Of a stretch of DNA of 64,000 nt, positions 12,948 to 57,800 are shown piece after piece (position 1 is the first letter of the stretch; every line of letters begins with the position of its first letter). This stretch comes from Rudanella paleaurantiibacter (GTDB taxonomy: Bacteria > Bacteroidota > Bacteroidia > Cytophagales > Spirosomataceae). The notes under the pieces are model-generated. The model ran no database searches and was not told where the DNA came from. It saw only the letters and a list, made by a program, of their open reading frames with translations. Position numbers and translations under genes: made by a program. The stretch is taken from the NCBI RefSeq assembly GCF_009184635.1, contig NZ_WELI01000003.1, positions 62,001-126,000 of the forward strand, given 5' to 3'.

Positions 12948-14693
12948 TTATTGCCCCAGCGCCAGTCGGCCATTGGGTTCGTACAGGAGTTTACTGCCCG
13001 CGTTCAGAATTACTTTCTGCGCCCGATACAGACCATTGGCCGGTACCGTCACGGAGTGATTGATGTACACAGCATCGGTTGCGTCGGGGATGCGCGTACA
13101 CGACCAGATGGTAGGGTCGTCCCAGCGGCCGGCACGTAGGGTCGTAAGCGGGCCGGGGCTGTAACCCGGTGGTACGCCCGCCCCTGAGCCATTGACCGTA
13201 ATCAGCTCGCCCAGTTCGCCCACTACCGCGGGCGAGGTCGACCGCACCCGGAGCCGATACCGTCCGTTAGCCCACGATGGCAACGTGACCGGAATCAGAT
13301 TACCCGTACCACTACCCACCGTAGCCAGGGCACAACCCGACTCGCTCACCAGATCAACCTCGTAGGTGTTGTCGGTACGCGTGGGTACCGCCGATAGCAA
13401 GGGTACATTGACCGACTGACCGGGCGAGGTAACAAACGGGAACACGTAGCCCGTTGTGAGCAGGATGGGGCGCGTAGGCAACGAGGGTTGTACACTGGTG
13501 AAAAAAGCGTCGCTCAGGGTCTGGCTCCAGATGTCGGCCAGGCGAATACAGTCCTGACCTCCAAAATGGACATGGAATGCATCTTCGACCCGGTAGTCGG
13601 GATAAATCAGCCCGTCGGTTGCCGGGCCGGGCCAGTTGTTGGGTTGCGAAGCCAGGATATTCTGAGCCTCAATAATATTGGGATCAGTTTCGTGATTGAC
13701 ATATTCGGCCCCAAACGAAGCGTGCAAATACGACACCCGCGATACCACCCAACCCAGTTGGCTATAACCCGACTGCTGCCGGGTACGGTTGATCACAAAA
13801 CCGATCTGCGAAACGTACTCATCACGGGTGCGGTAATAGTTGTCACTCTCGCCCTGATGCCAGAGCACCGCCCGTACACCCGTCCGCTTCAGGTAATGCA
13901 GCATAGTCGACCCCAGGGCGCGGTATGGGGCATTCCGGTTATAGTAGCCGTTGCCAACATTTTGCTCGCCCGACGCAGCCGCAAACCAGTCGGTTGAGCG
14001 GGACCCCGGATGCGACCCACCAAAAAACATAACTGGTACCCCTAAACGTTGCACCAATCGGTCGCCCAGCGCCCCCCACATAAACACAGGGGCGGCCGGT
14101 GCCATGCCGTTCTGGCCATCAGCTCCCAGCGTAGCAGCTACCGCATTGAGGGTGAGTTCGTGCTCTTCAAAGTTACCTGCTCCATTGTAATATGCATTGG
14201 GTTGCAGCACCATCGACACCCGATCTTCGAGCGCCTGCCCCTGTACAAAACTGCCGCCCCAGGAGTTCGACTGGCCCGACACCACAAATACTTCGCCCAC
14301 GCCCACACGGCCTACGTAAGCGGCCCCGATCTCGGTAGCGTCGTTGAACGCCTTGACATCCAGATCGTACCAGCCCCCTGTGATGTTGAGTGCGGCTCCC
14401 TGAAATGTACCATTGCCCGGCGCACTATCGAGCACAAACCATGGGGTTGACGTGCCACCCTGCCGGGCACTGAGCCGGGCCTGAATCTGGGTAGAGTTGG
14501 CCGGGCATCGGCCGGTGATATAGATGGTTGCCCTATTGGCGTTGCTGCGCTGAAAAACGAAGCGGGAGGTAGGAAAGGTAACGGTGACCTGCGCGTAAAG
14601 GGCCTGCGATAGCCCTATGATAATAACAACCGTACGGAGAAGTAAGGTAGAAATTTGGTTCACTTGATTCAGGATGTAGCTGTGGTGGTACAT
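12948..14693 (-). CDS. Secreted SGNH/SASA-type carbohydrate esterase with 65-residue C-terminal G-W module
   Basis: 581 residues. Signal peptide ends near YAQ at residue 35. The catalytic part is a sialate-O-acetylesterase/DUF303-like SGNH hydrolase: VVSGQSNSWGG (nucleophile Ser, about residue 140), VLWHQGESD, and a late DAFHVHFG with the likely catalytic His. Residues about 410-505 look like a beta-sandwich. The last 65 residues (12948-13145) form a module with G-x-W-x-D-P-x-x-W-x-C-x-R-x-P, shared at exactly the same length with two other secreted proteins in this window. No canonical T9SS tail is present. Substrate unknown; acetylated sugar likely by family. Confidence 0.82.
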   Translation of the reverse strand: MYHHSYILNQVNQISTLLLRTVVIIIGLSQALYAQVTVTFPTSRFVFQRSNANRATIYITGRCPANSTQIQARLSARQGGTSTPWFVLDSAPGNGTFQGAALNITGGWYDLDVKAFNDATEIGAAYVGRVGVGEVFVVSGQSNSWGGSFVQGQALEDRVSMVLQPNAYYNGAGNFEEHELTLNAVAATLGADGQNGMAPAAPVFMWGALGDRLVQRLGVPVMFFGGSHPGSRSTDWFAAASGEQNVGNGYYNRNAPYRALGSTMLHYLKRTGVRAVLWHQGESDNYYRTRDEYVSQIGFVINRTRQQSGYSQLGWVVSRVSYLHASFGAEYVNHETDPNIIEAQNILASQPNNWPGPATDGLIYPDYRVEDAFHVHFGGQDCIRLADIWSQTLSDAFFTSVQPSLPTRPILLTTGYVFPFVTSPGQSVNVPLLSAVPTRTDNTYEVDLVSESGCALATVGSGTGNLIPVTLPSWANGRYRLRVRSTSPAVVGELGELITVNGSGAGVPPGYSPGPLTTLRAGRWDDPTIWSCTRIPDATDAVYINHSVTVPANGLYRAQKVILNAGSKLLYEPNGRLALGQ

Positions 14694-16274: not shown

Positions 16275-18431
16275 ATGACAAACCTTTCCAAATCCACCCT
16301 TTTCGGGATGTTGTTGGTGCTGCTGAGCGTAGCATCAGTATGGGCGCAAAGCGCGCCAACGGTACAATGGCGCGTTGATCTGGGGCAGCCCCCCACGGTA
16401 GCGAAGGTCGTTAACGCACCGGGAGGAGAGTATTTCGTTCTTCTCACCCCTCGATTTGGTAGCTCAACGTTGGCACGGTTAACGGCTGACGGGCAGTATC
16501 AGCCTATTCGCACCCTGCCTAACTCACCTGATACCTATGAGGCCAACCAGCTTATCAGAACACAGGATGGCGGCTTTTTGATTAGCGGTAACGTCAACCG
16601 TGACGGATTCAATGATCGAGGCTTTATCACCAAGTTAGATGTACACGGAAATACCGTTTGGAATACGGTTCCGGACCCGCTTCCGTTGGTGCCCGGCATA
16701 CGCCCTACGAGTTACAGAAATACATTTCTGCTGGAGCGTTCCAATTACTACGTAAAGTTCACAAACATTGGAAGAGGGATTGTTTCAAGTGCGTTTCGCC
16801 AGCACTTTGACAAAAATGGCCGAGAGCTTACATTCAGACGAACACCGGTCGATAATACTTTGGCTTACGCAGCTTCAACGGAATTTGTGAGCGACCTTGC
16901 CGAAGCCGTCGATGGGGGGATTCTTGTCGGATTTGGAAATGGATTTACAAACCTCAGAAAAATCACCGATACCGATACCAGTTTTGCCCTGCCCGGCTAC
17001 CCCGACCCATACCCCAACAATTGGACACGGGCAATTACGCCTACGGTTGCCCGTGATGGTTACTATGTAGCGAGCAGCCAGAAAATCAGCAAAATAAACC
17101 CCAGCGGTTATGAAGTCTGGTCGGTCAATCAGGCCGATATTGGAATTTCCAACCCATATAAATTACTGGCAGAACCCAACGGCGTAACCTTCGTAGCCTT
17201 TAGCGCGGGCAGAGTGGTGTTGCAAAAGCTGAGCCTGTCAGGCACCCCGCTCTGGCAGGTTGATGTGACAGACGGAGGCCCCTCCGACCTCTTGAAAGCA
17301 TCTGATGGCGGGTATATCGTGGCTACCAATACCCCCCGGTTCATCAAGTTCAGCCCCGAACAAACCACCAGTAATTTTGCTCTGACGTCCCCCAACTACG
17401 ACTGCAACACGGGCCAGCTGACCCTCAACACAACGGGCGGCAACGGCTCACCTATCGAGTTCCGCATCGTTGGCCTGCGCGACTGGGCAAGCAGCAACAG
17501 CTTTTCCGTACCCGCCCACCAACGCAACGGCACCACCTTCAACCTGGAGGCCCGCCAGAATGGGCAAATGATTTCGGTGGGGTTCACCACCGCCTGTGGC
17601 ACTACCACCCCGCCACCCAGCACTACCACCACTCCACCCGTTAATCCACCCGCCAATAGCTTTGCCGTACGGATAGCCGGCTACGATTGCACTACCGGGC
17701 AGCTAAACACAGTGGCCAATAATGCAAATGGTAGCGTTGAGTTCCGTATCCTCGGCCTGCGCGACTGGGCCAGTAGCAGCACCTTCACCGTACCCGCCTG
17801 GCAGCGTACCAACACCACCTTTAAGATTGAGGCTCGCACCAGCCTGGGAGCCTACGCCAGCACCGACTTCACCACAACCTGCGGGAGTATTCAGCCACCG
17901 GTAACACCTCCTGCGGGAACGGCGTTGCGGTTCGAAACGCCTGCGTTCTACTGCGAGACGGGTCTGTTGCGGCTCATCACGAGCGGGGGCGATGGTACGC
18001 TGGTGGAGTACCGCATCCCCGGCCTGCGCGACTGGGGCCCGACCGACTTTACGGTGCCCACTTACCAGCGGCAAAACACCACGTTCACCTTGTACGCTCG
18101 CCAAAGTGGCAGCGAGGTGAGTACGACGTTTACGGCCAACTGCCCCACCAACGCGCGTTTGGCCCATACCGAAACGAGCCGGAGCTGGCAGATGACGCTA
18201 TTGGGGAATCCCGTTGAGGATCAGGTGCAGGTACGTTTGACAGGGACAAGGGGCCAAACGGTTGTACTTCGGATGAGCGATGCCACGGGCCGAATCGTGA
18301 CGGAGCGGGCGGTGCAGATGCAAACAGAAGAGCAAATTGAAACGCTACGCATGAGCGGCTCAGCTGGTGTGTATGTGCTGGGCGCCGTGAGCAACGGTCA
18401 GCAACAGAGCCTGAAAGTGTTGAAGAAATAA
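16275..18431 (+). CDS. Secreted T9SS cargo protein with three Cys-bracketed modules
   Basis: 718 residues. Signal peptide ends near VWAQ (residue 25). Residues about 30-365 contain propeller-like repeats with the pattern TQDGGFLISGN...GFITKLD..GNTVWN. Then three repeated modules at about residues 368-440, 462-535 and 550-625, each starting Y-x-C-x-T-G and containing FRIxGLRDW and a closing Cys, separated by Thr/Pro linkers. The last 80 residues (LLGNPVEDQVQVRLTG...GVYVLGAVSNGQQQSLKVLKK) are a type A T9SS sorting domain. It is probably exported through the outer membrane and anchored at the surface. Ligand or function unknown. Confidence 0.8.
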   Translation: MTNLSKSTLFGMLLVLLSVASVWAQSAPTVQWRVDLGQPPTVAKVVNAPGGEYFVLLTPRFGSSTLARLTADGQYQPIRTLPNSPDTYEANQLIRTQDGGFLISGNVNRDGFNDRGFITKLDVHGNTVWNTVPDPLPLVPGIRPTSYRNTFLLERSNYYVKFTNIGRGIVSSAFRQHFDKNGRELTFRRTPVDNTLAYAASTEFVSDLAEAVDGGILVGFGNGFTNLRKITDTDTSFALPGYPDPYPNNWTRAITPTVARDGYYVASSQKISKINPSGYEVWSVNQADIGISNPYKLLAEPNGVTFVAFSAGRVVLQKLSLSGTPLWQVDVTDGGPSDLLKASDGGYIVATNTPRFIKFSPEQTTSNFALTSPNYDCNTGQLTLNTTGGNGSPIEFRIVGLRDWASSNSFSVPAHQRNGTTFNLEARQNGQMISVGFTTACGTTTPPPSTTTTPPVNPPANSFAVRIAGYDCTTGQLNTVANNANGSVEFRILGLRDWASSSTFTVPAWQRTNTTFKIEARTSLGAYASTDFTTTCGSIQPPVTPPAGTALRFETPAFYCETGLLRLITSGGDGTLVEYRIPGLRDWGPTDFTVPTYQRQNTTFTLYARQSGSEVSTTFTANCPTNARLAHTETSRSWQMTLLGNPVEDQVQVRLTGTRGQTVVLRMSDATGRIVTERAVQMQTEEQIETLRMSGSAGVYVLGAVSNGQQQSLKVLKK

Positions 18432-26849: not shown

Positions 26850-29800
26850 ATGTCCAAACTATTACTCTCTGAGCCAATTCAGGTTCGTTTTGGCCCACAC
26901 CTAAAAAGCCCGATTCCCATCCAGCTCTGCAAATTTCTGCTTGCTTTTTTGGTTGCCCTGCTTATCTCAACTACTCAACAGGCAAATGCCCAGCAATGCA
27001 CTACCAACGGCGGCAACTGGTCTAGTGCAACCTCCTGGACATGTACCGGAGCAACCGCCCCTCCCTCAGGTACATTCACCGGAAGCATCAACGTACTCGG
27101 TACGTTGACACTGGATATCAACGTAAGCATTTCTGGATCAACATCGATTAACATCGGCAACAGTGGCACACTCCAGATTGACCCAAACCGCACGCTCACC
27201 CTATCGAACAATTCGTCGATTATCAACCTGTTTGGTACAGGCAATGTGGTGGGGGGAGGCAGCGCCAACTCATCAATCACCATTGGAAGTAGTCCAACGG
27301 TCTGGACCTATAACGCGTTCAACAATACGCCCGTTAGCGGCCCGATAATGTTTACCAATACCGGGTATATAGCACTTCCATCCCTGACGTTATCGGTTGG
27401 CAATTCAAACCCGAGTGTCTGCGTAGGCGGTACCTCGAACCTGTCGGTCTCACCTGCGGGCGGTACAGCGCCCTATAGCTACACCTGGAGCGCACCTGCC
27501 GGAGGGTCACTGAGTTCGACCTCGAGCGCTGCTGTTTTAGCCACCATTACAGCAGCTGGTACGCAAACGTTTACTGTTACAGTGGCCGACAACTTTGGCC
27601 GGCGGGGAACCAGTACGGTGAATGTGACGGGGGTGAGTACCCCAACAGCGACACTTGCAGCCAGCGGACCCATCACCTGTACGCAGCCTACCGCAACCTT
27701 GACGGCAACGGGTGGCACCAGCTACACGCTCAGCAATGGACAGACGAATACAACGGGCATCTTTAGTGTAAATACGGGTGGCTCATATACAGTAACTGTT
27801 GCAAATGCTACCGGTTGTACCGCTACAGCATCGACCAATGTAACTGTAGACAACACACCTCCAACGGCTACCTTGGCTGCCAGCGGGCCCATCACTTGTG
27901 CCCAACCTACAGCAACCTTGACAGCCACTGGTGGAGCAAGCTACAAACTGAGCGACGGACAGACCAACACCACCGGTATCTTCACAGTAGCCACCGGCGG
28001 AGCTTTCTCGGTAACTGTAACAGCCGCCAACGGTTGTACCGCTACAGCGTCTACCAACGTAAGCGTAGACAACACGGCCCCAACAGCGACACTCGCTGCC
28101 AGTGGAACCATCACGTGTGCGCAGCCTTCAGCTACCCTAACAGCAACCGGCGGCACGAGCTACAAGCTGAGCGATGGGCAAACCAACACCACCGGTATCT
28201 TCACCGTTAACGCTGGCGGAGCGTTTAGCGTGACGGTGACGGCCGCTAACGGTTGTACCGCTACAGCATCTACGAATGTCAGCAGTGACAGTACCGTCCC
28301 TACAGCCACGTTGGCTGCCAGTGGTACTATCACCTGCGCCCAACCCACCGCGACCCTAACGGCAACGGGCGGTACCAGCTACAAACTGAGCGACGGACAA
28401 ACCAACACGACGGGTATTTTCACTGTAGCCACCGGTGGAGCCTATTCGGTGACGGTAACGGCCGCCAACGGTTGTACCGCTACAGCGTCTACCAATGTGA
28501 GTGTAGACAATACTGCACCCATAGCGACGCTGGCCGCCAGCGGGCCCATCACTTGTGCACAGACTACGGCGACCCTAACGGCGACCGGTGGTGCAAACTA
28601 CAAACTGAGCGATGGGCAAACTAACACCACCGGCATCTTCACGGTGGGAACAGGCGGAGCATTTAGCGTGACGGTGACAGCGGCCAATGGTTGTACCGCT
28701 ACGGCTTCGGCTACTATCAATGTAGACAACACGGCCCCAACAGCGACACTCGCTGCCAGCGGTACCATCACCTGCGCCCAACCGACAGCAACCCTGACCG
28801 CGACTGGCGGCACAGGCTACAAACTAAGCGATGGACAAACTAACACTACCGGTATTTTCACCGTAGGGACCGCCGGAGCATTTAGTGTGACCGTAACAGC
28901 TGCGAACGGTTGTACAGCAACCGCGTCTGCCAACCTAGAGAGTGATAATACAACGCCAACGGCCACACTGGCCGCCAGCGGAATCATCACCTGCACCCAG
29001 CCAAGCATTACCCTGACGGCAACGGGTGGTACAAGCTACACCTTGAGCGATGGCCAGATCAATACCAACGGTATTTTTACGGTGAATGTTGCTGGAGCCT
29101 ATTCTGTCACGGTTTCAAATACAAATGGTTGTAAAGCTACCAGTTCGGTAACTGTAAGCAGCGATAACACGCCACCAACGGCTACCTTGGCTGCCAGTGG
29201 TACTATCACCTGCGCGCAACCCACCGCAACCCTCACCGCAACCGGCGGCATAGGCTACAAGCTGAGCGATGGGCAAACCAACACCACCGGTATCTTCACT
29301 GTAGCCACCGGTGGAGCCTACTCGGTGACGGTAACGGCCGCCAACGGTTGTACCGCTACAGCGTCTACCAATATGAGTGTGGACAATACACCACCAACGG
29401 CCACCTTGGCCGCCAGTGGTACCATTACCTGCGACCAACCAACAGCCACCCTTACGGCGACCGGTGGTACAAGCTACAAACTGAGCGACGGGCAAACTAA
29501 CACCACTGGCATCTTCACGGTGGGAACAGGGGGCGCCTTCTCTGTGACCGTGACAGCCGCCAATGGTTGTACAGCTTCGGCATCGACCAATGTAAGCAGT
29601 GACAACAGTACCCCTACGGCTACGCTGACCGCTAACGGTATAATCACCTGTGCTCAACCTACCGTTACGCTCACGGCTACTGGCGGTACTCGATTCATTC
29701 TTAGTGATGGACAGACGAATACAACGGGAACTTTTGTTGTTAGCACTGTAGGTCCATGTTCAGTTACCGTATTAAGTGCAAACGGGTGTAAGGCTGTTGC

Positions 29801-31820
29801 CTCCACAAACGTCAGCAGTGACAATTCAACACCAACGGCTACATTAGCTGTTGGGGGTACGCTGACCTGTTCACAAACAACCGTCACGCTGACGGCTACT
29901 GGCGGTACCAACTATACGCTGAGCAATGGACAAACCAATACGACCGGTATCTTCACCGTTAATGCAGCTGGTCCTTATTCCGTGACGGTTTCGAACGCAA
30001 ACGGCTGTACCGCTACCGCTTCGGCTACCGTTAGCAGCGACAACTCTGTTCCCACGGCATCAATCAACGCACAGCCCGGTACAAGCGTTACGGTTGGACA
30101 AAGCGTTACGCTAACAGCCAGCGGTGCGGCCAACTACACCTGGAGCACAGGCGCTACTACGGCGAGCATTAACCCGCCCACAAGCGCTACCGGAAGCACC
30201 ACCTACTCAGTTACGGGGGTTTCGGCCAATGGATGCTCCGCTTCGGCTACGGTCACAATCACCGTAACCAGCCCCGTAGCTCCGCCAGTATCGAGCACCT
30301 GCGGAAGCCCAGCTAACACGATTGGGCAGCCGTTTGCCCTGGTAGCTCCGACGTACAATTGCCAAACCGGCCTGATTCAGTTCAACACGGTTGGTGGTGA
30401 TGGCTCACCCATTACGTACGCAGCCATTGGTATTACGAGTCCAACCAGTAGCTGTACCGATCTGGTCGACACGCAAGTAGCCGAAGACATCCGCAATGGG
30501 CGACCCAACGTACAGCCGTTTACCATTTTCGCGACGCAAAACGGCGTAACTGTAAGCTACACCTGGAATGCACTCGCAGCGTGTGCGGGCGGATCAACCG
30601 GAAACACCGCTCCGTTTGTTGTGAACCCAGTAACCCCTCAAACTGCTGTAGTCGGTTCTGCCTTTAGCCTGAACGTGGGCAGCGTGTTCTCCGATGCCCA
30701 GACACCAACGCAACTGGTACTCTCGGCGGGCAACTTACCAGCTGGCCTTAGCCTTGCAGGAACCACCATCAGTGGTACCCCGTCTGCATCGGGAGTGAGC
30801 ACTGTGACACTGATCGCCACTGACCCGGGTAACCTCGCAACCAGTACCAGCTTCCAGATTACGGTTAGCGCGGCAACGAGCGGTACCACCACTACCCCAC
30901 CATCGGGCAGTGCCCTCACGTTGCTGACCCCAACTTACGACTGCGCTACCGGTGCAATTACCTTCAACACAGCGGGCGGAGACGGCACCACCATCACCTA
31001 CTCGGCAGTGGGCGTACAACGGTCGTCGGCTACCAACAATACCGGTGTTGTTGAAGCTGGGTTACGAGCAGACCCAAAGCCGCTGAACATCACGGCTACG
31101 CAAAGCGGTGTGACGGTTAGTATTACCTTTGATTTCGGGGCATTCTGCGCAAACCCAGGCTCAGGTACTACTCCACCCGGTTCGGGCACCACAACACCAG
31201 GCTCAGGTACCACCACACCAGGCACCGCTACGTGTGGTAGTTCAGCCAGTACCATCGGCCAAACGTTGCAGATAACCGGGGTAACGGATGTCAACTGTCA
31301 GACGGGGACCTTCCGAATCCTGACCAGCGGTGGCGACGGCTCAGCTATTAACTACCAGAATATTATTGGTCTGAGCAACACCGACCCCAACAACTGCGTG
31401 CGGATGGTTGATAACCCCGAGCAGTTACGGGCTATTAACACCGCTACCTCAGACATTTCCCCGTTCCAGTTGCGCGTGACTCAGGGAGCGACCACCAGCA
31501 ACACATTTACCTTTAATTTCAAAGGGTTCTGTACGGGTACGGCTCGTATCGCTAACGAAGGTGCCGCCGACCTGAACGTAACCGTTCTGGGTAACCCCAC
31601 CGCGCAGGATTTTGTAGAGATTGAGGTTCGCGGGGCCGGTAACCAGCCCGTTCAGTTTGCCGTACTCAGCATCGGAGGTCGCCTGGTACACCAGGTAAGT
31701 GCCCAGTCGAGCCAGCCTGTAATCCGGCAGCGAGTTGAACTTGGCTCAACTCCGGGTATCTACCTGCTCCAGCTGAGCACACCCACGCAGAGCAAAACCG
31801 TGAAAATTGTGAAGCAATAA
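26850..31820 (+). CDS. Giant repetitive surface protein with T9SS sorting domain
   Basis: 1656 residues. A long N-terminus (about 48 residues, ending QANAQ) precedes a GGNWSSATSW segment similar to the C-terminal module of three other proteins here. Residues about 264-1068 are eleven 73-residue repeats, each with two Cys (ITC and NGC) and the pattern TATLAASG.ITCAQPTATLTATGG. Then come an Ig/PKD-like unit, two Y-x-C-x-T-G modules flanking a cadherin-like putative-Ig unit (about residues 1250-1345), a PGSGTTTPGSGTT linker, a third Y/N-C module, and a T9SS type A tail (VLGNPTAQDFVEIEVRG...PGIYLLQLSTPTQSKTVKIVKQ). Likely an adhesin or sheath protein at the cell surface. Confidence 0.85.
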   Translation: MSKLLLSEPIQVRFGPHLKSPIPIQLCKFLLAFLVALLISTTQQANAQQCTTNGGNWSSATSWTCTGATAPPSGTFTGSINVLGTLTLDINVSISGSTSINIGNSGTLQIDPNRTLTLSNNSSIINLFGTGNVVGGGSANSSITIGSSPTVWTYNAFNNTPVSGPIMFTNTGYIALPSLTLSVGNSNPSVCVGGTSNLSVSPAGGTAPYSYTWSAPAGGSLSSTSSAAVLATITAAGTQTFTVTVADNFGRRGTSTVNVTGVSTPTATLAASGPITCTQPTATLTATGGTSYTLSNGQTNTTGIFSVNTGGSYTVTVANATGCTATASTNVTVDNTPPTATLAASGPITCAQPTATLTATGGASYKLSDGQTNTTGIFTVATGGAFSVTVTAANGCTATASTNVSVDNTAPTATLAASGTITCAQPSATLTATGGTSYKLSDGQTNTTGIFTVNAGGAFSVTVTAANGCTATASTNVSSDSTVPTATLAASGTITCAQPTATLTATGGTSYKLSDGQTNTTGIFTVATGGAYSVTVTAANGCTATASTNVSVDNTAPIATLAASGPITCAQTTATLTATGGANYKLSDGQTNTTGIFTVGTGGAFSVTVTAANGCTATASATINVDNTAPTATLAASGTITCAQPTATLTATGGTGYKLSDGQTNTTGIFTVGTAGAFSVTVTAANGCTATASANLESDNTTPTATLAASGIITCTQPSITLTATGGTSYTLSDGQINTNGIFTVNVAGAYSVTVSNTNGCKATSSVTVSSDNTPPTATLAASGTITCAQPTATLTATGGIGYKLSDGQTNTTGIFTVATGGAYSVTVTAANGCTATASTNMSVDNTPPTATLAASGTITCDQPTATLTATGGTSYKLSDGQTNTTGIFTVGTGGAFSVTVTAANGCTASASTNVSSDNSTPTATLTANGIITCAQPTVTLTATGGTRFILSDGQTNTTGTFVVSTVGPCSVTVLSANGCKAVASTNVSSDNSTPTATLAVGGTLTCSQTTVTLTATGGTNYTLSNGQTNTTGIFTVNAAGPYSVTVSNANGCTATASATVSSDNSVPTASINAQPGTSVTVGQSVTLTASGAANYTWSTGATTASINPPTSATGSTTYSVTGVSANGCSASATVTITVTSPVAPPVSSTCGSPANTIGQPFALVAPTYNCQTGLIQFNTVGGDGSPITYAAIGITSPTSSCTDLVDTQVAEDIRNGRPNVQPFTIFATQNGVTVSYTWNALAACAGGSTGNTAPFVVNPVTPQTAVVGSAFSLNVGSVFSDAQTPTQLVLSAGNLPAGLSLAGTTISGTPSASGVSTVTLIATDPGNLATSTSFQITVSAATSGTTTTPPSGSALTLLTPTYDCATGAITFNTAGGDGTTITYSAVGVQRSSATNNTGVVEAGLRADPKPLNITATQSGVTVSITFDFGAFCANPGSGTTPPGSGTTTPGSGTTTPGTATCGSSASTIGQTLQITGVTDVNCQTGTFRILTSGGDGSAINYQNIIGLSNTDPNNCVRMVDNPEQLRAINTATSDISPFQLRVTQGATTSNTFTFNFKGFCTGTARIANEGAADLNVTVLGNPTAQDFVEIEVRGAGNQPVQFAVLSIGGRLVHQVSAQSSQPVIRQRVELGSTPGIYLLQLSTPTQSKTVKIVKQ
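27639..30053 (+). repeat. Eleven tandem 219-bp coding repeats
   Basis: The Thr codon of the PTATL motif recurs at 27645, 27864, 28083 and onward to the edge at 30054, giving exactly eleven units of 219 bp without an indel. Units 2-9 are most alike; the outer units 10 and 11 have drifted. Each encodes one probably disulfide-bonded beta-sandwich. Confidence 0.9.
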
Positions 31821-31842: not shown

Positions 31843-31876
31843 AAGCGGCCACTCCAATAGGGTGGCCGCTTTTTTA
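31843..31876. terminator. Bidirectional terminator
   Basis: Stem AAGCGGCCAC / GTGGCCGCTT with a nine-base loop, then TTTTTT. Lies between the convergent surface protein gene and the rubredoxin-tailed gene. Confidence 0.85.
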
Positions 31877-33328
31877 TGCCATCTCGTGCGTAAGGGGCCG
31901 AAATTCGGACCGGGGCGCATCGCAGGTAGGGCAGGCATACTCGGCCGGCAGACTCGCAAACGAAACACCGGGGGCAATTCCGTTGAGACAGTCGCCGTAC
32001 TGTTGGTCGTACACCGTCAGGCAGTGCGGACACTCGTACAGGGGCACCACAGCTACCAGCGTTGTATCAGTCTTATCGGGTTCGGGGCGGATGGTATCGG
32101 GCGTTTGCGCCAGCCAACGCGCATTGAACGTCCGGCAAAGTCGGTTCAGCTGATTAGGGAGATGCAGCCGCAGTAAGCCCTTCTCAAAGAGATGATACAC
32201 ACGACTATTTGGGTTGAAGTTTTCCGTATAAAACAGGTCGTACACGCTGAACAGGGCCAGTTGCCCAATCCGCAAGATCGGCCGTTTGCGAATCAGCACA
32301 GAACCAAACACTTCCGTTTTGGGGCGGGTTTGAATACCAAAACACAGGCCAAACGTGCGGGTATCGTCGCGTTCGAAGTAGCGTAGAATATGGTTTTTCA
32401 GGCGACTCCCTTCGTCGGAATGATCCTCCGTCTGCCACGCCAATCCATTAGCCGCATGCCGCACGTTGATGTTATGTTTGCCCAACACAAACGACCAGGC
32501 TGCCCGGTCTTTCTCTTCGATGCTTTTGATGATAAGCGACTTCCAGGGCGTTGCACATAACTCACCAATGCGGGTCTGAAGGCAAAGCGTACAGATATCC
32601 AGCAAAAACGCCACCGAAAACTGCTCGTCGGGCCGGTACAAACCCAACCACGACCGTTGGCCGTACCGGTTGAACCCTTCGTAATACGGTAACGAAAACT
32701 GGGGCAAATCGACCTCTTGCCCCACCGGTTGCGTTATAAACGACTGCGCGTCTGTTACCGCCCGAGCCAGCTCCTGCCCGTCGTGATACTTACCGTCGAG
32801 CATAGCTATTTCAACGGCGCGGGCCATCCGACCAATGTCATTCGTGTAAACCAGCTGAGGCCAGCAGAACAGCGAATTGCTCCGCTTCGGCCGAACGTAC
32901 AGGTACCAGAAATGAGGCTCCGGCGAGGCTATAAAATTCAGATTGCCCGTAAAAAAAGGGGTGAAACTCTGCCGGGAATCGGAGAGGTTTATTTTGAGCC
33001 TCGGGCGGTACTCAAACTGATCCAGAATGGTATGATACTCGCTCTCACGCAGCCAGGCTCCCGTATGAAACACATCTTCTCCACAGTAGGAACTGATGAT
33101 ATTGGGGTATTCTTCGGGATTGGTTTCGTACACGATGCCGTGCCGCTGCAGGTCTTTTTCCAGAAACCGCATCTCCTCATAATGCACAGTCATGAGCAAC
33201 TGCTGCCGGGCACCAAACTGCACCTTCCGCACGTTGGCCGCGTAGGCCAGACGAAGGATAGTCTGCAACGTGCCCGGCGACACAATGCCGGCGGGCAAAT
33301 TGACTTTCAGGGTATAATAATCGCGCAT
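31874..33328 (-). CDS. Sulfite/nitrite reductase-like protein with C-terminal rubredoxin domain
   Basis: 484 residues. The first 400 residues follow the two-fold ferredoxin-like/SiR layout (LKVNLPAGIVSPGTLQTILRLA..., QFGARQQLLMTVHY, and a second half with GELCATPWKSLIIK). However, the paired C-x5-C and C-x3-C motifs that hold the siroheme-[4Fe-4S] centre are not seen, so it may not be a catalytic reductase. Residues about 428-475 are a rubredoxin domain (ECPHC...ACPTCDAP), with an extra Cys between the knuckles. It lies 15 bases after the nitrate reductase gene in the same operon, suggesting an electron-transfer role in nitrate or nitrite reduction (inference). Confidence 0.75.
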   Translation of the reverse strand: MRDYYTLKVNLPAGIVSPGTLQTILRLAYAANVRKVQFGARQQLLMTVHYEEMRFLEKDLQRHGIVYETNPEEYPNIISSYCGEDVFHTGAWLRESEYHTILDQFEYRPRLKINLSDSRQSFTPFFTGNLNFIASPEPHFWYLYVRPKRSNSLFCWPQLVYTNDIGRMARAVEIAMLDGKYHDGQELARAVTDAQSFITQPVGQEVDLPQFSLPYYEGFNRYGQRSWLGLYRPDEQFSVAFLLDICTLCLQTRIGELCATPWKSLIIKSIEEKDRAAWSFVLGKHNINVRHAANGLAWQTEDHSDEGSRLKNHILRYFERDDTRTFGLCFGIQTRPKTEVFGSVLIRKRPILRIGQLALFSVYDLFYTENFNPNSRVYHLFEKGLLRLHLPNQLNRLCRTFNARWLAQTPDTIRPEPDKTDTTLVAVVPLYECPHCLTVYDQQYGDCLNGIAPGVSFASLPAEYACPTCDAPRSEFRPLTHEMA

Positions 33329-33343
33329 GGTGTCTGATACCGT

Positions 33344-36300
33344 TTAAATGACCCCATCGTAACGGGTTGCCGACTCGCGCACGGCCTCACGTTCGCGCGC
33401 AGCCTCCAGAATACTCCGAATTTCGGGGCGGCAAGACCCGCAACCTGTACCAGCGCCGGTTTGCTGACAGAGCTGCCCGAAATCGGTGCATCCCGCCCGT
33501 ATGGCCTGTTCCAAATTGCCCTGCCCCACCGTATTACACGAGCACACCAGCTTACCCTGTACGGGGTCTACTTTTTTGCTGGCCCGCAGCAGTTGCAGCC
33601 GTTTTTCCGACAGTTCGACGCCGTTAGCAATCAGGTCCCGGAACTCGGCAAACTCGTTTTTGTCGCCCACCAGAATAGCTCCCACTAGTTTGTCGTTATG
33701 CACAATGCACTTCTTGTAATAACGCCGGGCCTTGTCCATAAAAATAATTTCCTCGTATTCGCCCGTAGGAGCCCCTACCGGAACCTCTGCCAGCCCCATA
33801 CTGCACAGGTGCAGACCTTCCATTTTGAGAATATTCATCGACAAACTGCCCCGGTACGGCTGCGATACATCGCCCGCTATGAACCGGGCTGCCGTTTCGG
33901 CCTGTTGCTCAGCAGCCAGTGTGACGCCCCACATCTGCCCATTCCACTGGGCCACCTCGCCAGCCGCAAAAATGTCGGGGTCCGAGGTTTGCAGGTAGTC
34001 GTTTACCACCACGCCCCGATTGCAGTGCAGACCCGCTTCGCGGGCCAGCTCAATGTTGGGCTCTGTACCAATGGCCATCACCACAACCTGACAAGGGAGC
34101 TTCACCCCCGATTTGAGCTGAATACCCTCCAGCCGGTCGATACCGGCAAAAGTGAGGACCTCCTCGTTGAAATACACCTCTATACCCCGGTCGAGCAATT
34201 CCAGATACAGCAGTTCACCCGCCAGCGAATCGAGTTGGCGCTCCATGAAACGGCCACCCCGCTGCACAACCGTTACCCGTACGTCCAGTTGCCGGAGCGA
34301 CGCGGCCAGTTCGAGGCCCAGCAGTCCCCCGCCTACAATGACCGCGTGGGGTTCGGCCCCGGCGGGCGAAGGCTTCAAAAAGGGGAGCAATGCGTCGGCA
34401 TCGAGCCGCGAGCGCATGTTAAAAATACCCGGCAGCCGAGGTACCCCACGTGGCATAAATGCCCGGCTCCCGGTACCCAACAGGAGCTTGTCGTAGCTAT
34501 GTTCGTGGCCGTTGGTATCGGTAAGTACTTTGGCGGTACGGTCGATATGCGCAATACCAACGCCTTTATGCACCACAATACCGGCTTCAGCAAACTGATC
34601 TTCGCGCAGTTTTACCAACTGCTCCCACGATTGCGCTCCACTGATATAGTCGGGCAGCAACACGCGGTTATAAAACGGGTAAATCTCTTTGGAGAAAACA
34701 TGAATTTCGTCACGGATCGGCCCCGTTTGTAACGCTCGGTACGCGTTGATAAAGCCCAGCCCCGCCGACCCAGCCCCGATAATGACAATTTTTTCGGATG
34801 GCTTTCGGTAAGGCTGTACCTCTACGGCCGTAAACTTAAAATCAGGCTCTTTAGACCGGGGATCAATGAGCGCATGGGTCAGGTTATTGGCTCGGTTATG
34901 GTTCAGATTCCCCGGCTGTTTGCCCCAGTGCATCGGCAAAAAACAAAGCCCCGGCCGCACGGCATCCGTCAGGCGAGCCTTTACGCGGACTTCGCCCCGG
35001 CGGCCACGCACCTCCACCAACTGACCCTCCCGAATACCCCGTACCCGCGCATCATCGGGATGAATTTCCAACAGAGGTTGTGGGCTGTGCTGGTTCAGCT
35101 TGGCCACCCGCCCCGTTTTGGTCATGGTATGCCACTGATCACGGATGCGGCCGGTGGTGAGTACCAGCGGAAAGTGGGCATCTGTGGGTTCTGAATTATT
35201 ACCATCGGGTACGGCGTGAATCTGCGCCCGGCCGTTCGATGTATAGAAAATGTGGTCGGTAAATAACCGCTTCGTCCCCAAAGACTCTACACGCGCACCT
35301 CCATTCTTCCCTGCCTGCGTTCCTCCTTTCTTCCCTTCCTCCTTTGCAACCGGCCACTGTACACTCCGGTAGGTTTGGAGTAATGGGTAATCAACGCCCG
35401 TGACATCAATGCGGGTGCGCGCCGTACTTTGTGCGTACTCGGCATACACTTCTTGCGCGTTTTGGTACGCGAATGCTTCGCCGAAGCCCATTTTTTGCGC
35501 AAATCGCCAGATGATTTCGGCATCGGGCAGGGCTTCGCCGGGGGCGTCGATTACCCTGGGCAGGTAACTGATCCGACGTTCGGCATTGGTCATGGTGCCC
35601 TCTTTTTCAAGCCAGGCCGCAGCCGGCAGCACCACATCGGCAAATGCCACCGTATCTGCCCGATCCGACACGTCCTGCACCACCACAAAGCGGGCATTTT
35701 TAAGGGCTTTTTCGGCCCGGTTCAGGTCGGGCATACTGACCAGCGGATTGGTATTGATAATCCAGATAGCCTTGAGTGAATCACTATCGGCTAGGGCATC
35801 AAACATTTCAGTAGCCGTCAGGCCGGGGGTATCGGCAATCCGAACGGGACTGTTCCAAAATGCTTCCATCTCGGCCCGGTGCGCGGCATTGACCACCTCG
35901 CGGTGACCGGGCAACAGATTGGCCAGCCCCCCTACCTCGCGGCCTCCCATAGCATTGGGTTGGCCCGTGAGCGAGAACGGCCCGTTTCCGGGCTTGCCAA
36001 TACGGCCTGTAATCAGGTGCAGGTTAATGAGCGACAGGTTTTTGTTGACCCCCACCACCGACTGATTGAGCCCCATAGTCCAGAGCGACAGAAACCCTTT
36101 TGAACGCCCAATCCAGTCGGCGGCTTTTCGAATATCATCGGCCTCCACCCCGCACAGCTCGGCCGATTCGGCAAGGGTGCGCTGCATCAACAACGCCCGG
36201 TAAGCCTCGAAGCCATCGGTATGCGCCCGGATAAAATCAGGGGCGATCTGCCCGGATTCGATCAGCAACCGGCCTATTGCATGGTTAAGGACAATGTCGG

Positions 36301-36973
36301 TGCCGGGCCGAAGCGGCAGATGTAAATCAGCCGAACGTGCCGTATCGGTGCGCCGGGGATCAACGCAAATGATTCGGACTTCCGGGTTAGCCAGTTTGTG
36401 CGCTTCGAGCCGACGCCACAAAATCGGGTGGCACCAGGCCGGGTTGGCCCCTGCGACCAGAAACAGGTCGGCCTCTTCGATGTCGTCGTAACAAACCGGC
36501 ACCGAGTCTTCGCCCAGAGACAGTTTGTAGCCCACCACGGCCGAACTCATACACAACCGCGAGTTGGTGTCGATGTTGTTTGACCCAATAAACCCCTTAA
36601 TCAGCTTATTGACCAGATAGTACTCCTCCGTCAGGCACTGCCCCGACACGTAAAAGGCAACCGAATCCGGGCCGTATTTCTGAATGAGCGTCCGAAACAC
36701 AGCCGCCGTGCGTTCGAGGGCGGCATCCCAGCTTACCCGTTGTAATGGCATCGACCGGTTGAGCCGCATCTGTGGGTACAGCAGCCGATCCGACTGATCC
36801 ATGACGGTGTAATGCAGGTTCATGCCTTTCGAGCAGAGCATCCCCCGATTGACCGGGTGCTGTTTGTCGCCAGTCACCGTCAGGCGACCGGTAGCATCCT
36901 GGTTGACGACAATGCCACAACCTACGCCACAGTAGCAGCAGGTGGTTCGGTGTTGAGAGGGCTGAGTATTCAT
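33344..36973 (-). CDS. nasA: Assimilatory nitrate reductase fused to a NirB-type FAD diaphorase
   Basis: 1209 residues. N-terminal [4Fe-4S] Cys at 12, 15, 19 and 47; molybdopterin oxidoreductase body with the Mo-ligand Cys in NTNSRLCMSSAV, GANPAWCHPI, and MopB C-terminal VLTTGRIRDQWHTMTKTGR. From about residue 725 a pyridine-nucleotide-disulfide oxidoreductase domain begins (KIVIIGAGSAGLG), and residues about 1140-1195 form a BFD-like [2Fe-2S] domain (LVCSCNTVG...GCGSC). The fusion would carry electrons from NAD(P)H via FAD and Fe-S to molybdenum in one chain. A low-complexity insert (GKKGGTQAGKNGG) sits before the MopB C-terminal part. Between narK and the rubredoxin gene. Confidence 0.92.
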   Translation of the reverse strand: MNTQPSQHRTTCCYCGVGCGIVVNQDATGRLTVTGDKQHPVNRGMLCSKGMNLHYTVMDQSDRLLYPQMRLNRSMPLQRVSWDAALERTAAVFRTLIQKYGPDSVAFYVSGQCLTEEYYLVNKLIKGFIGSNNIDTNSRLCMSSAVVGYKLSLGEDSVPVCYDDIEEADLFLVAGANPAWCHPILWRRLEAHKLANPEVRIICVDPRRTDTARSADLHLPLRPGTDIVLNHAIGRLLIESGQIAPDFIRAHTDGFEAYRALLMQRTLAESAELCGVEADDIRKAADWIGRSKGFLSLWTMGLNQSVVGVNKNLSLINLHLITGRIGKPGNGPFSLTGQPNAMGGREVGGLANLLPGHREVVNAAHRAEMEAFWNSPVRIADTPGLTATEMFDALADSDSLKAIWIINTNPLVSMPDLNRAEKALKNARFVVVQDVSDRADTVAFADVVLPAAAWLEKEGTMTNAERRISYLPRVIDAPGEALPDAEIIWRFAQKMGFGEAFAYQNAQEVYAEYAQSTARTRIDVTGVDYPLLQTYRSVQWPVAKEEGKKGGTQAGKNGGARVESLGTKRLFTDHIFYTSNGRAQIHAVPDGNNSEPTDAHFPLVLTTGRIRDQWHTMTKTGRVAKLNQHSPQPLLEIHPDDARVRGIREGQLVEVRGRRGEVRVKARLTDAVRPGLCFLPMHWGKQPGNLNHNRANNLTHALIDPRSKEPDFKFTAVEVQPYRKPSEKIVIIGAGSAGLGFINAYRALQTGPIRDEIHVFSKEIYPFYNRVLLPDYISGAQSWEQLVKLREDQFAEAGIVVHKGVGIAHIDRTAKVLTDTNGHEHSYDKLLLGTGSRAFMPRGVPRLPGIFNMRSRLDADALLPFLKPSPAGAEPHAVIVGGGLLGLELAASLRQLDVRVTVVQRGGRFMERQLDSLAGELLYLELLDRGIEVYFNEEVLTFAGIDRLEGIQLKSGVKLPCQVVVMAIGTEPNIELAREAGLHCNRGVVVNDYLQTSDPDIFAAGEVAQWNGQMWGVTLAAEQQAETAARFIAGDVSQPYRGSLSMNILKMEGLHLCSMGLAEVPVGAPTGEYEEIIFMDKARRYYKKCIVHNDKLVGAILVGDKNEFAEFRDLIANGVELSEKRLQLLRASKKVDPVQGKLVCSCNTVGQGNLEQAIRAGCTDFGQLCQQTGAGTGCGSCRPEIRSILEAAREREAVRESATRYDGVI

Positions 36974-37010
36974 GGCTCAGTTGATTTACAGGTAGCAGAA
37001 AGGCCCAGAA

Positions 37011-40278: not shown

Positions 40279-40281
40279 CTC

Positions 40282-41503: not shown

Positions 41504-41545
41504 TAATTAAACAGGGTTTTTATAACAACGTAGTTACTATCAACT

Positions 41546-49315: not shown

Positions 49316-52300
49316 AAACTTAACTGCAAACGTGCTTTCTCCTCAAACGAAAGGGTTCCTCCACTACCATACCGGATTAACACCGCTTTACCGGTTTGGT
49401 AGTGGGGGATATTCACCCTATGTAGGATTAGTACACCATCTTCATCGGTAGGAAGTCGATTACAGAACCATACAGACGGGTCAGTCCAATTACCCGCCTG
49501 AACCGTGTAAATCAACTGATTGTAAAGCAAGGTTTTGAACGTTTGTATGGGTCCGTGGGCCAAGGTTGATGGCGCGGCACACTGAGTAGCTACACGCCAT
49601 TCGTAAACCGTGTTACGCTTCAAACTTGTCAATTGATAGCCGGAGCGGCCTATGTTCTGCATTTGTTGCCAGGCAGAGTCTCCCTTAATTCGCCAGTGAA
49701 GAGTCACAAATTGGTTTTCGTCATTCATTGTCCAGTTCAACGATGCCGATGTCGTTCCTGTAGTCATCATACGTGCATAGACCGGGGCATTACAAACCGT
49801 TCGGAAGAATTGAACGGGTGTAAAATAACTGGGTTCACCCCTGAGATCCCGGACTTTCCATTCGTAGACTGTTTCGGGTTGGAGGCCAGTCAATTTGTAT
49901 TTTAATGGATAAAAGTCATTGGCATTACCTGTTACGGTCAAAGAATTCCAGGAAGTTGTATAGCCCTTACGCCACTGTAGTTCAAAATCGCTAATTCCTC
50001 CATAGCTACTCCATTGCAATTGAGCTGTGGTCTCCGTCAAGTTATACTGACAGAGATTACGAGGCTGTATATAAGGAATGGAGGAACAGCCGGATGTAAA
50101 TGTTCCCGAAACAAAGGGCGCTAACGTCCCATCGGCATAAACAGCTCGCACCTGAACCAGATAGGGGGTATTAGAAGGGAGATTTTTCAGGGTGTAGTAG
50201 TGCACCGAAGTTGTTGCCTCAACTGTACGATCATCCGAATCATCTAACCGACGATAAGAGATCTGATAAGTAGCCCCTTGTGTAAAGCAATAATTCCACC
50301 CAACTGTTAAATCCCGGCAATTATCACCATTTACCCGGATTTTGACTAACGCCCCCACATCTGCATAAGCCGTTGTAACTGTTTCTGTATTCGAGAAAGG
50401 CCCTGTATAGCCATTGGGTACAGATAACCGAACCTGATACTCATAGGTTGTGTTAGGGCGCAGATTTGTCAGTAAACGTTCCTGCCCAGTTATAAACCGA
50501 ACTGATTGCCAGATATCACTACCAACAGGGCGATAACGGCACTCGTACTGATCCAATTCACTATTGCAAACGCTCGTTCCAAAGTAAATTTGAACACGGT
50601 CAGGGCCAATCACCGGGCAGTTTATATTCCTATACATAACAACTGCCCCATCAGTCGTTGTGAAGGTTTCTGGTTGTGTAAAAACCGGTTCGCTACTTTC
50701 TGACAACAACTTACCTATCCGAAATTCATATTCGGTTTTGGGTTGCAACCCGTTCAGAATACACTTACCATTTGGCACTGTAAAAGTGCCATAATGGGGG
50801 CTTTGAATACTATCTGTTACAATTTGTGTGTTCCAGCAATCGGTATTCTTCTGTCGCCACTGTACCGTGACATTACCATAATAAACCGTATTCGATAGCC
50901 AGCTCACCTGCGCACTACGCCATCCGATACACATTACTCGTAGCGAGTGAGCGAGGGGTTCAAATCCACTGCTGATTTTGGACCCGAGCGTGTAACTTCT
51001 AACAGGTGAATAATCCGATGAAGAACCATCCGCACAAACCGCTTTTGACCGAATTTCGTAGGCAGTTTGTGGCTTACCTCCAAACTGATACCAAACGGTA
51101 TTTGCAAAACCATTTAACTCGTTTAATAGCGGTGACTGGTGCCATAGACCCGTTCCTTTTTCGCGCCACTCGACCAGACCACTGGCCTCAAATAGGCCAC
51201 GGATCGATAATAACCCATACGAATCCAGCTCTGTTAGAAAAGGAGTTAAGCAAGTAGCGGTAAACACTATAGGCTCAGAAAAAGCACTACGGTCTGTGGC
51301 CGAACACTGTCTTTGGCCCTGTAGCTCATACCTCACCTTATTCCGTAAACCTGTCAATCTGAATATTCCTCCCGAATTATCATCTACGAAATGCCATTCA
51401 CTATTGCCCTGTTCCCGCCATCGAATACTATACTGATCCTGCACCGCTCCATATACCTGAATTATAGCTGAATAACCGCTAACAGATCCAAGATCAGATA
51501 ACCACAAATCTATATTCGGACAAGGGCCTGTGGTAAACGACTGGGGTTCTGTAAAACCGGAGTGCCGGTTCAAACCGCAGACGGTCCGCACACGCCAGTT
51601 ATAGTGACCTTTGGAAATGGCTAATTCGTAGGAATTGCCTGTAAAATTAGTCGCCAGAGCACTCCAACTGGTAGCCCCCTGGGGTTGCAGCTGAATTTCA
51701 GTTACTGCTCCGGGTTGGTTCTGCCAGTTCAGCCGGGCCGAAGTGTAGCCAATATCTGAAGTAACTGGTTCAGTTGGGGCTACGCAGCCAGTGGTGAACG
51801 AAGTGATTTTGGAATAACCAATCGCTGTTGCCGAGCACACCTCACCAACACGCCATTCGTAGGACGTTCGGTCGGTCAGACCCGTTAGCGAAATGGGGCC
51901 TACAGGCAAAGAATTAAGGGTATTCCAGCCTGGCTCATTCTCCTCGCGCCATTGAAACACATAACGTTCCGGATTCGACAACCCTCCTAACGTAACAGAA
52001 GTAGGTGTAATGACAGTTGGCAGTGAATAACTACCACCCGCTGGGCAAGGTAAAGTGGTGAATGAAATTGGAGTCGTGTATGCCGACGTATCACCGGGCG
52101 CACAAACACAAGCCACTTGCCACTCATAAACAGTGGCTGGTTCAAGTTTATCGAAAGTAGCATAAACAGCACCACTGGCAACAATTTTTGTACTTTGTTT
52201 CCAGTTACTATTTACAGTACGATATCTTGCCACAGAAGGCATATTTAAACACCCAGCAAATAAAACTTCAGCCCAGTTATATGATAACCGAGGGGTATAC

Positions 52301-54844: not shown

Positions 54845-57800
54845 CTACTGCCCCAACCGAAGCCTACTACCCACGCCAAACGTCAGCCGGGCAGCGGCCC
54901 CGTACGTTAATCGGGCGGCATACCCCGTTGCTCCGGCCGAAACCGTGACGGCATGGTTCACCAATACGGCATCGGCCGAGGTGGGCACCCGCCCGCACGA
55001 CCATACGGTTGGGTCGTTCCAGTCCCCGTTTTTGACGGTGGTCAGCGGACCGGTACAGCCGGGGCCACCGGCAAGCGTTTTGAACGTCAGTGGCTGCCCT
55101 GCCCATTCCGAGAAGCCAGCTCCGCACCTGTTCAGCACTCGCCATTCGTAGGCCGTACCGCCATCGAGGGCAATGAGCGTAAACGAACCGACCGTACTCG
55201 ACAAAGGCCCAACACTAACCGTGTTCCACGCAGTGTTGCCCACGGCTCGCCATTGTACCTCGTAGGTTTCGTCGATGGAACCACGCCATTGCAGCAGGGC
55301 CGAATTAGCGGTCAGGTCACCTACACGCAGGAAGGTAGGCCCGGCGCAGATAGTCTGAAACGTGATGGGTGGCCCATACGTAGTAATACTGCCACTCACG
55401 CACTGAGTAGCTACCTGGGCTTCGTAGGTGCCGCCCACCTGCAAACCGGTCAGGCTGTACGTTTCGCTGCTGATGCCACTCAGGGTTGTCCAGCTACCCA
55501 CGCCCTGTAAACGATATTGAACCGAGTACGTTACACCGCTCCCGAAGCCGTTCCAACTCAGTTCGGCCGAGTTAGCCAGTACCGTCGTTGCCAACAGGGA
55601 GAGGGGGGCGTTGCAGAGCGTTCTGAAGTAGCTAATGGGCGAATAGTCGGCGTATTGACCACTCGCGCACAGGTACTGAATCTGCCAATCGTAAGTCGTG
55701 TTGTCGGTGAGGTCGGTAAGCCGGAGTGCCGTACCTGTCACAACCGACGTACTCCATACCGTAGCCCCGGCGGCTCGCCAGCGAACCCGGTAGGTATTAC
55801 TGGGCGTATTGGCATACCACTGCACCGTTGCCGCCGAAGCGGTAATATCGATAGCCGACAAGCCATTGGTATTGGTCATGGGGACACACGCGCAGGCTAT
55901 CGTGGTAAACGAGCCCACCGTATACGCCGAGCTATTTCCTCCTCCGCAAGCGGTATTGATCCGGTACTCGTAAGCGGTGCCCGGCAACAAACCACCGAGG
56001 GTGAACCGGGTGCTGCCAAGGCTGCCTACTGATGTCCATGTACCAGCTCCCTGCTGCCGGTATTGCAGATCGTACTGCGCCAAACCAGCCGTACAACCCG
56101 CCCAATTGATTCGGGCATATCCGCACGAATCGGCCGCCATCAGTTGCACCACCGATAAAACCGCCGGAGCTACACAAACCGTTGACACCGACGCGGGCGC
56201 ACTAAACGACGAGCTGACCGAGGCACTACATACCGACCGAACCTCCCACCCGACCGAGTTACCGGCTACCAGTCCGGTAAGCGCGTAGCTGTTGGTGGTC
56301 AGGCCCGTGACGGACACAGGGTTTCCGGCACCAATTCGGTAGCGCAACTCGTAGGTTGCACCGGCCGGGCCATTCCAGTTTAGCACGGCACCGGTTGCTT
56401 GCACACAGGCAGCCGCCAGGTTGGTCGGGATGACGCAACTTGACGTAGTGAACGTCTGCACCGAGCTAAATACGGCCTCTTGCCCCGCGCACATACCGCC
56501 TGCCTGCCACTCATAAGCCGTGTTGGGCAACAGATTTTGGGCAACAAAGCTTACAGAACCGCCCCCCGGCAGCCGTGAAGCCACCAACCAAACGGTTTCT
56601 CCGACAGCCCGCCAGCGCACTTCTGCCTGCGGGCTCGCGCTGCTACCCCAGTGCAACGTTGCCTGCGTAGCACCGGGTACGCTGTAAAGCAACGATGGCG
56701 CTACGGCCGAACAGGCAACCGTCGGGCTGGTGGTAAACGTGATAGCCGATGAGTAGCCCGACGATACGCCGTTGGGACACTCCATCCGAACCCGTAATTC
56801 GTAGCCGGTCCCTGCCGATAAACTCGTTAGGGGTGTGGTATAATTCTGCCCCGCCAGCGTCGCTTCGTTCACAATTGGGCTGCTCACCCAGTTGGTGGCC
56901 CCTATTGGTCGCCATTGGGCCTGATAGGCCCCATTGGGTTGTCCGAGCCAGTTGGCCAAGGCCGTAGCTGAACTCAACCCGCTGACGTAAATATTGGCCG
57001 ACGATGGCGTGGGGCACACGCTCGTGAACGCCTGTGGATTACTTACCCCCGACGAAACGGTGAGCGACGAGGCCACACAAGTAGCCTCTACCCGCCATTC
57101 GTAGCCGGTGGCATTGGTCAGGTTGGTGAGTATGTACGGGCTCGCGGGCCAGTCGGTTGCGGCAGTCGTCCAGGTACCGCCCGATGGACGCATCGAGATG
57201 GTGTACACCGCATTAGAACCGACGGCTGTCCAGTTCAACCGGGCTGCGTACGCATTAATCCCGTCGGTGCTGAGCCCCGTTGGTACGGCACAGCGGGTGG
57301 TAAAACTGGCGGGGGCCGTGAATGCCGAGCTTTCGAAAGCCGTACAGAGTGTGCGTACCCGCCAGTTATACGCCCGATTCACCACCAGACCCGTCAGTGA
57401 AGCCGAGCGGGTTGTCACGGTCAGCGAGTTCCAGCTCGTGGGGTTGGCTTGCTCCTGCCACTGCACTTCATAAAGCGTTGTCGATGGGCCTTGCCAGCTT
57501 AGAGCCGCTGTGGTTAAACCGGCATTGGCATTCAGGGCGGTTGGTAGTGGGCACGCCAACGTGGTAAACGTGGGGCCGGGCGTGTAGGTCGACGATTCGC
57601 CGGGGGTACACACACTGCGTACTTCCCAGACGTAAGCCGTACTCGGGTTCAGCCCCGTGAGCGATTGTGACGTAGTCATTACGCCAGACACCGTCGACCA
57701 GGTGGCCTCGGCTACTGCCCGGAACCGAACGTCGAAAAGCGTACCCGAAGGGTTCACCGACCCGGCCTGCCAGTTCACCACAGCCGAGTTGGGCGTAATG

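Follow-up and report, generated by a model that had tools for sequence, protein, structure and literature searches.

A short C-terminal module on secreted proteins of Rudanella paleaurantiibacter and its family: a candidate sorting or anchoring domain in the place of the T9SS type A CTD

Here we describe a module of some 65 residues that closes a varied set of proteins in Rudanella paleaurantiibacter and in other members of its family, the Spirosomataceae. It is probably a C-terminal sorting or anchoring domain with which some of the secreted proteins end instead of a T9SS type A CTD, a reading that we hold with moderate confidence and that is based on the C-terminal position of the module, the exclusion of the CTD from the same proteins, the replacement of one tail by the other among homologues and the export signals of the hosts. 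Our Pfam and NCBIfam scans found no model that would describe the module as a C-terminal domain, and the literature that we searched held no description of it.

Three copies lie in the window, that is, the whole stretch of 64,000 nucleotides that was analysed (table 1). The first-pass annotation of this DNA had reported that their hosts share a C-terminal motif, and it was right: pairwise local alignments of the last 70 residues of the three hosts score 121, 179 and 145, where shuffling the same pairs 500 times each gave at most 37, 60 and 42, and 18 of the 70 columns are invariant across the three tails. Judged by these alignments, the three tails are one homologous module. Its length, given at that time as exactly 65 residues, in fact varies among members from about 65 to 68. 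The endings LALGQ, LQLSF and LRLGQ are present as described, but they belong to a variable last strand, the last residue being Q in 21, N in 18 and P in 12 of the 98 copies introduced below. It had also been stated that two other proteins of the window carry the classic T9SS tail and that the three hosts do not, and both statements hold: TIGR04183 matches the two proteins and, in the NCBIfam scan, none of the three tails. Indeed, when the three hosts were scanned at full length against Pfam and NCBIfam, no model matched the tails, the type B CTD (TIGR04131) included. The GCX_COOH model (NF045639) gave no match on the window tails at E ≤ 10, while three GCX tails run alongside scored 59–67 bits.

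Table 1. Copies of the C-terminal module in the window, their host proteins and the two T9SS tails used for comparison
Feature	Positions	Strand	Remarks
C-terminal module copy 1, on SASA-type esterase	12951..13151	-	Profile score 81.9; 0 residues to C-terminus
Stop codon of SASA-type esterase	12948-12950	-	
Host protein 1: secreted SASA (PF03629) esterase, 581 aa	12948..14693	-	Pfam scan
C-terminal module copy 2, on FN3-array protein	49318..49512	-	Profile score 78.2; 1 residue to C-terminus
Host protein 2: FN3-repeat protein, at most 1044 aa	49312..52446	-	Pfam scan
C-terminal module copy 3, on M43 peptidase/FN3/GEVED protein	54848..55051	-	Profile score 93.5; 0 residues to C-terminus
Host protein 3: M43 peptidase + FN3 + GEVED domains, at most 2398 aa	54845..62041	-	Pfam scan
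Comparison: T9SS type A CTD (TIGR04183) ending the 16275-18431 protein	18207..18431	+	Without C-terminal module
Comparison: T9SS type A CTD (TIGR04183) ending the 26850-31820 protein	31593..31820	+	Without C-terminal module

The module is far more widespread than these three copies, with 29 tblastn matches (E ≤ 0.1) in the same genome (6.72 Mb, 34 contigs). Read in frame, 23 of them are C-terminal and six are internal, the latter spread over four proteins; L032 has one copy of each kind. For four of the 23 C-terminal copies the tblastn match stops 11–27 residues early, and the alignment reaches the protein end. A protein of 1100 residues (L042 in C32), in which no Pfam domain was found at E 1e-5, has a strong module (76 bits) at residues 330–395 and about 705 further residues behind it.

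The four genomes of the genus search gave 14–29 matches each, and 21 of the 23 matches in the 22 loci fetched are C-terminal. In the family sample, a match at E ≤ 1e-5 occurs in at least 40 of the 81 genomes, among the matches listed; the counts per genome in this search include some internal copies. Outside the genus we considered the 80 matches listed, down to E 2.5e-9. Seventy-five of them are C-terminal, with the protein end 62–78 residues past the match start, and the exceptions are L146, L171, L177, L178 and L223. Two of these, L171 (G325) and L178 (G372), come from two genera and have a similar extra C-terminal domain in the last 126–128 residues, behind the module; with TADP..L....W near its start and Q-I-R-R near its end, it looks by eye like a shared fusion.

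The 23 copies of the R. paleaurantiibacter genome and the 75 from other genera of the family make up a set of 98 C-terminal modules. Their median pairwise identity is 34%, with the G, W, W, P and H columns 97–100% conserved, and in all 98 the stop follows the second Trp at a narrow range of distances (median 51 residues, 5–95% range 49–55). A conserved basic residue near the C-terminus, such as type A CTDs have, was considered and dropped; R or K is found there in about 44% of the copies.

The hosts have little in common except export. Their Pfam domains in the R. paleaurantiibacter genome include SASA, M43, S8, GSDH, DUF1501, NHL, beta-helix, Chlam_PMP, SBBP, Vps10-like, LamG, Ig, PKD, GEVED and FN3, and two hosts (L030 and L044) show no Pfam domain at E 1e-5. 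A crude signal-peptide rule accepted 19 of the 23 hosts of this genome and 65 of the 75 of the family, compared with 47 of 57 type A hosts and two of ten cytosolic controls. Two of the four misses in the R. paleaurantiibacter genome (L047 and P0002) resemble signal peptides by eye, and the other two (L032 in C29 and L049 in C31) are ORFs without a recognisable N-terminus, which start as if the reading frame had been broken upstream. A T9SS is present in the family, SprA (TIGR04189) having been found in 81 of the 81 genomes, so that the co-occurrence of the module with T9SS genes, proposed earlier as a check, is uninformative within it. In the Rudanella family, proteins with the module mostly have the traits of the T9SS-CTD class: C-terminal placement, an N-terminal export signal and a T9SS in the genome.

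Many of these hosts are enzymes or repeat proteins, and homologous domains are found inside long repetitive proteins, as might be expected if the tail were a carbohydrate- or matrix-binding cap with no role in sorting. We find such a cap quite unlikely. It would not be expected to occupy the last position in 75 of 80 family matches, nor to stand in the place of a CTD, and the module also ends DUF1501, subtilase and M43 proteins.

The R. paleaurantiibacter genome encodes 57 type A tails over the cut-off. Five Pfam families, including DUF1501, SASA, GSDH and M43, are common to the module hosts and the CTD hosts of this genome, a count that sets FN3/PKD-type arrays aside; Metallophos is shared across genomes. 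Using profiles built here for both tails, we found a type A CTD at E 1e-3 on none of the 98 proteins that end in the module. This exclusion is partly automatic, given that two C-terminal domains cannot both be last, and its informative part is that no clear tandem was found. Two of the 57 type A CTD proteins (L251 and L260) carry the module internally. In L155 (G313) a weak, partial type A-like stretch precedes the module (residues 486–524, 11.5 bits, protein E 0.0026); it may be due to chance or be the remnant of a replaced CTD.

The two tails also replace each other on homologous proteins. Two DUF1501 paralogues of the R. paleaurantiibacter genome, 57% identical over 443 columns, end one in the module and the other in a CTD, and their sequences diverge at the tail junction; Pfam recognises DUF1501 in both and PF18962 in the CTD-bearing one. 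For three protein families we examined the best locus in each of 30 genomes, chosen by similarity to one query, in proportions that are not to be read as frequencies: the DUF1501 loci have the module in 21 cases, the CTD in eight, a contig end in one and both tails in none; the metallophosphatases have the CTD in 24 and neither tail in six; and the SASA esterases have the module in nine, the CTD in four, GCX_COOH in three and none of the three in one, the locus ending too early in 13. Among lower-ranking metallophosphatase homologues, chosen as examples and matched by coordinates to the tail searches, four have the module (in G297, G304, G349 and G361) and three have GCX_COOH (in G318, G344 and G354). 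Pfam assigned Metallophos to L238, which has the CTD, and to L149, L161 and L181, which have the module.

In the DUF1501 tree, a branch with 100/100 support sets the CTD rows apart. The DUF1501 tail thus changed once in this sample, in either direction, and independent replacements are therefore few. A strict test, in which the alignment had to reach within 40 residues of both tails, found a CTD counterpart in the R. paleaurantiibacter genome for four of the 98 module proteins, representing two protein families; 45 of the 98 have any homologue at E 1e-8, often by way of shared repeat domains. The GSDH and M43 proteins of this genome also occur with either tail, but other domains have been added to them and they are therefore not clean replacements. 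By sequence comparison, then, the module stands where homologous DUF1501 proteins, metallophosphatases and SASA esterases carry a type A CTD or GCX_COOH.

Among the functions that the first-pass annotation had suggested, a sorting or surface-anchoring signal is the best supported. The C-terminal position in the family, the mostly exported hosts, the occupation of the CTD's place in homologues and the absence of a type A CTD from the same protein all speak for it; the part played by the T9SS is what we infer.

Like the module, the type A CTD (TIGR04183 / PF18962) is C-terminal and beta-rich, occurs on many kinds of secreted hosts and takes the same place in homologues. It is also akin in length, 52 of the 57 CTDs of the R. 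paleaurantiibacter genome measuring 73–84 residues from match start to stop. The two do not match in sequence. The type A CTD is described as a seven-stranded beta-sandwich (PMC10994853, PMC10202324), while the relationship of the module is with the first part of G8, and the type A model in NCBIfam matched none of the 23 modules. Several kinds of tail, namely types A, B and C, are reported to be read by the T9SS (PMC10202324, PMC12618676), and in published models one shuttle accommodates short as well as long CTDs (PMC11969387). Types B (TIGR04131) and C (ChiA, cl41395) offer a precedent for several C-terminal signals read by the T9SS and, by analogy with these known readings, the T9SS would be the likeliest reader of the module as well. 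The NCBIfam models of types B and C found none of the 23 modules at E ≤ 10, the sole match being to a shikimate kinase model (0.15).

A further tail of this family is GCX_COOH (3-coathanger stack domain, NF045639), a name for which our literature search returned no paper. It is present in 56 of the 81 family genomes and, like the module, forms a short tail on homologous SASA esterases and metallophosphatases; unlike the module, it has another sequence and a length of 49 positions. There are 72 GCX_COOH places in G323 and 13–57 in 18 other family genomes. Most of the module-rich genomes have 0–2 such places, and those listed for them lie on open frames of about 187–217 codons. In the 81 genomes, 12 genera average at least three modules and ten average at least ten GCX_COOH, with no overlap between them. 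For this opposition the Fisher p is 0.004 over genomes and 0.015 over genera, at thresholds set post hoc and with kinship uncorrected, and the rank correlation is close to zero in both cases (0.15 and 0.02, respectively). These data weakly suggest that the module and GCX_COOH are two alternative tails for one job.

Outside the family, the module behaves differently. In the phylum sample, 98 of 296 genomes have a domain match at E ≤ 1e-4, and in the class sample 122 of 295 have one at E ≤ 1e-8. We determined its position in the best locus of 28 and of 27 genomes, respectively, from among all the matching genomes. Only one of the 28 non-family loci of the phylum sample is C-terminal (L055) and none of the 27 of the class sample, with L067 and L362, respectively, reaching a contig end. 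In these loci the module comes either soon after the protein start or hundreds of residues in, and at least 150 residues follow it, contig ends excepted. Of 14 named loci traced on genome contigs, those of Spirosoma profusum and Spirosoma terrae have the module at the C-terminus, and it is not C-terminal in the other 12, which come from other taxa and include several MAGs. The question raised at the outset, whether matches are always C-terminal, is answered largely in the affirmative within the family and negatively beyond it, where nearly all of the loci examined are N-terminal or internal; mostly internal copies were the very observation that the first-pass annotation had named as refuting its proposal. 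The C-terminal form represents a lineage-specific deployment of an older domain. L055 belongs to G091, from another family of the class, which has 12 matches at E ≤ 1e-4, and a second lineage may use the tail.

The G8 domain (PF10162) is matched by five of the 23 modules of the R. paleaurantiibacter genome (best E 5.6e-6). The matches end at position 43–71 of the 124 of the profile, and the curated cut-off is passed at one of the seven places in this genome. These profile matches relate the module to the first half of G8: it possesses a homologous first part, but the full 124-position domain above the gathering score is not found. Scanned alone against Pfam, the 23 modules gave these partial G8 matches, weak matches to Amnionless and seven single families at chance level. 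The relation to G8, like the low identity among the 98 copies, might be expected of a structural leftover, namely a shortened G8-type cap whose sole effect is to protect the C-terminus and which spreads by recombination between gene ends. We consider this explanation very improbable, since the near-invariant G, W, W, P and H columns, the near-fixed length to the stop and the replacement of a functional CTD point to selection on the tail.

A structure model was built on the third window copy, from the M43 peptidase/FN3/GEVED protein. AlphaFold2 modelled this 70-residue tail, with 13 sequences, at a pLDDT of 96.1 and a pTM of 0.82. The predicted fold is compact and almost entirely beta; a single short helical turn lies at residues 16–22 and the last strand at residues 65–68. 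Moreover, in a model of a 163-residue stretch of the internal homologue L088 (6 sequences, mean pLDDT 82.7, with 50–56 in the first 20 residues), the predicted strands succeed one another past the module. Because of this continuation, the C-terminal form looks in the models like a solenoid cap with its first rungs, stopping where the internal form goes on; the handedness of the solenoid and its open end are inferred.

Foldseek found no match of the module among solved structures in the PDB at E 0.001. The highest TM-score was that of amnionless (6gje; TMq 0.63, probability 0.57, E 1.6, rmsd 8.0), which is not significant, and the Amnionless profile (PF14828) gave weak matches in six of the 23 members from the R. 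paleaurantiibacter genome (best E 0.0011). Amnionless was absent at E ≤ 10 from a profile search against solved structures, whose marginal matches to a VgrG spike (0.019), an adhesin (0.49), RemZ (0.41, residues 617–647 of 1114) and RemA (2.2) were set aside. The library of viral structures gave nothing at E ≤ 0.001 (best 0.0052, an unnamed protein of 92 residues). For the L088 model, adhesins, a bactofilin, a pectate lyase and ice-binding proteins were listed from the PDB, none of them at E ≤ 0.001.

Amnionless is of interest for its manner of binding. In the account of PMC6283879, the base of its pyramid-shaped right-handed beta-helix docks end to end on the beta-helix formed by three cubilin chains, thereby anchoring these chains to the membrane. 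Beta-helix 1 of amnionless is like the module in the weak profile match and the TM-score, and in belonging to a protein that docks by beta-helix ends; unlike the module, it is an N-terminal domain of an animal receptor subunit. That open beta-helix ends can dock in this way (PMC6283879), together with the TM-score and profile matches just given, also favours the main rival of our reading, a surface-retention dock independent of the T9SS, in which the host would leave by another exit route and the open solenoid end would stack on a beta-helical partner of the surface or matrix. We think such a dock unlikely, as it would require another outer-membrane export route and the module occupies the place of the T9SS CTD in close homologues.

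Under the preferred reading, that of a sorting or anchoring domain in the place of the CTD, the host would cross the inner membrane by Sec or Tat, and the tail would then take it over the outer membrane, hold it at the surface, or both. In the tail itself, a beta-solenoid would start with its cap and first rungs and break off at the C-terminus, so that its last rung, the LRLGQ strand, is left uncovered. With the end-to-end docking of amnionless and cubilin as a precedent, this uncovered rung at the open solenoid end would be the likely docking face, and the receptor would most likely be the T9SS translocon or one of its shuttles. We would go one step further with less assurance, at somewhat below an even chance: the module may represent a new class of type IX signal, a minimal beta-solenoid plug, open at its end, that is recognised when a strand docks end to end on the uncovered last rung, with GCX_COOH as its functional twin and with lineages of the family having expanded one plug or the other. 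Such a plug would have a fold unlike that of the known Ig-like CTDs.

If the reading is correct, as many as some two dozen proteins per genome escape secretome prediction in this family, since the tail is invisible to the known models. A further consequence would be that the T9SS, or a parallel route of surface attachment, can read the end of a solenoid in addition to an Ig-like sandwich. How the T9SS recognises different signals is a question posed in a review (PMC10202324), and paired homologues that differ in their tail make it directly testable.

As to the surroundings of the module genes in the window, inspection by eye of the long ORFs adjoining the three copies revealed no obvious receptor gene and no obvious PorP/SprF gene; type B genes are described as usually clustered with PorP/SprF genes (PMC10202324). 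A plasmid search with the largest host gene as query gave no match. The FN3-repeat protein likely starts, by eye, at an ATG about nine codons into its ORF. Between the T9SS tails and the second copy of the module, positions 31874-44089 resemble, again by eye, a nitrate/nitrite assimilation cluster, with a reductase-like protein that has a rubredoxin-like C-terminus, a transporter, a nirB-like protein and a large molybdopterin oxidoreductase that seems to include fused FAD and [2Fe-2S] parts.
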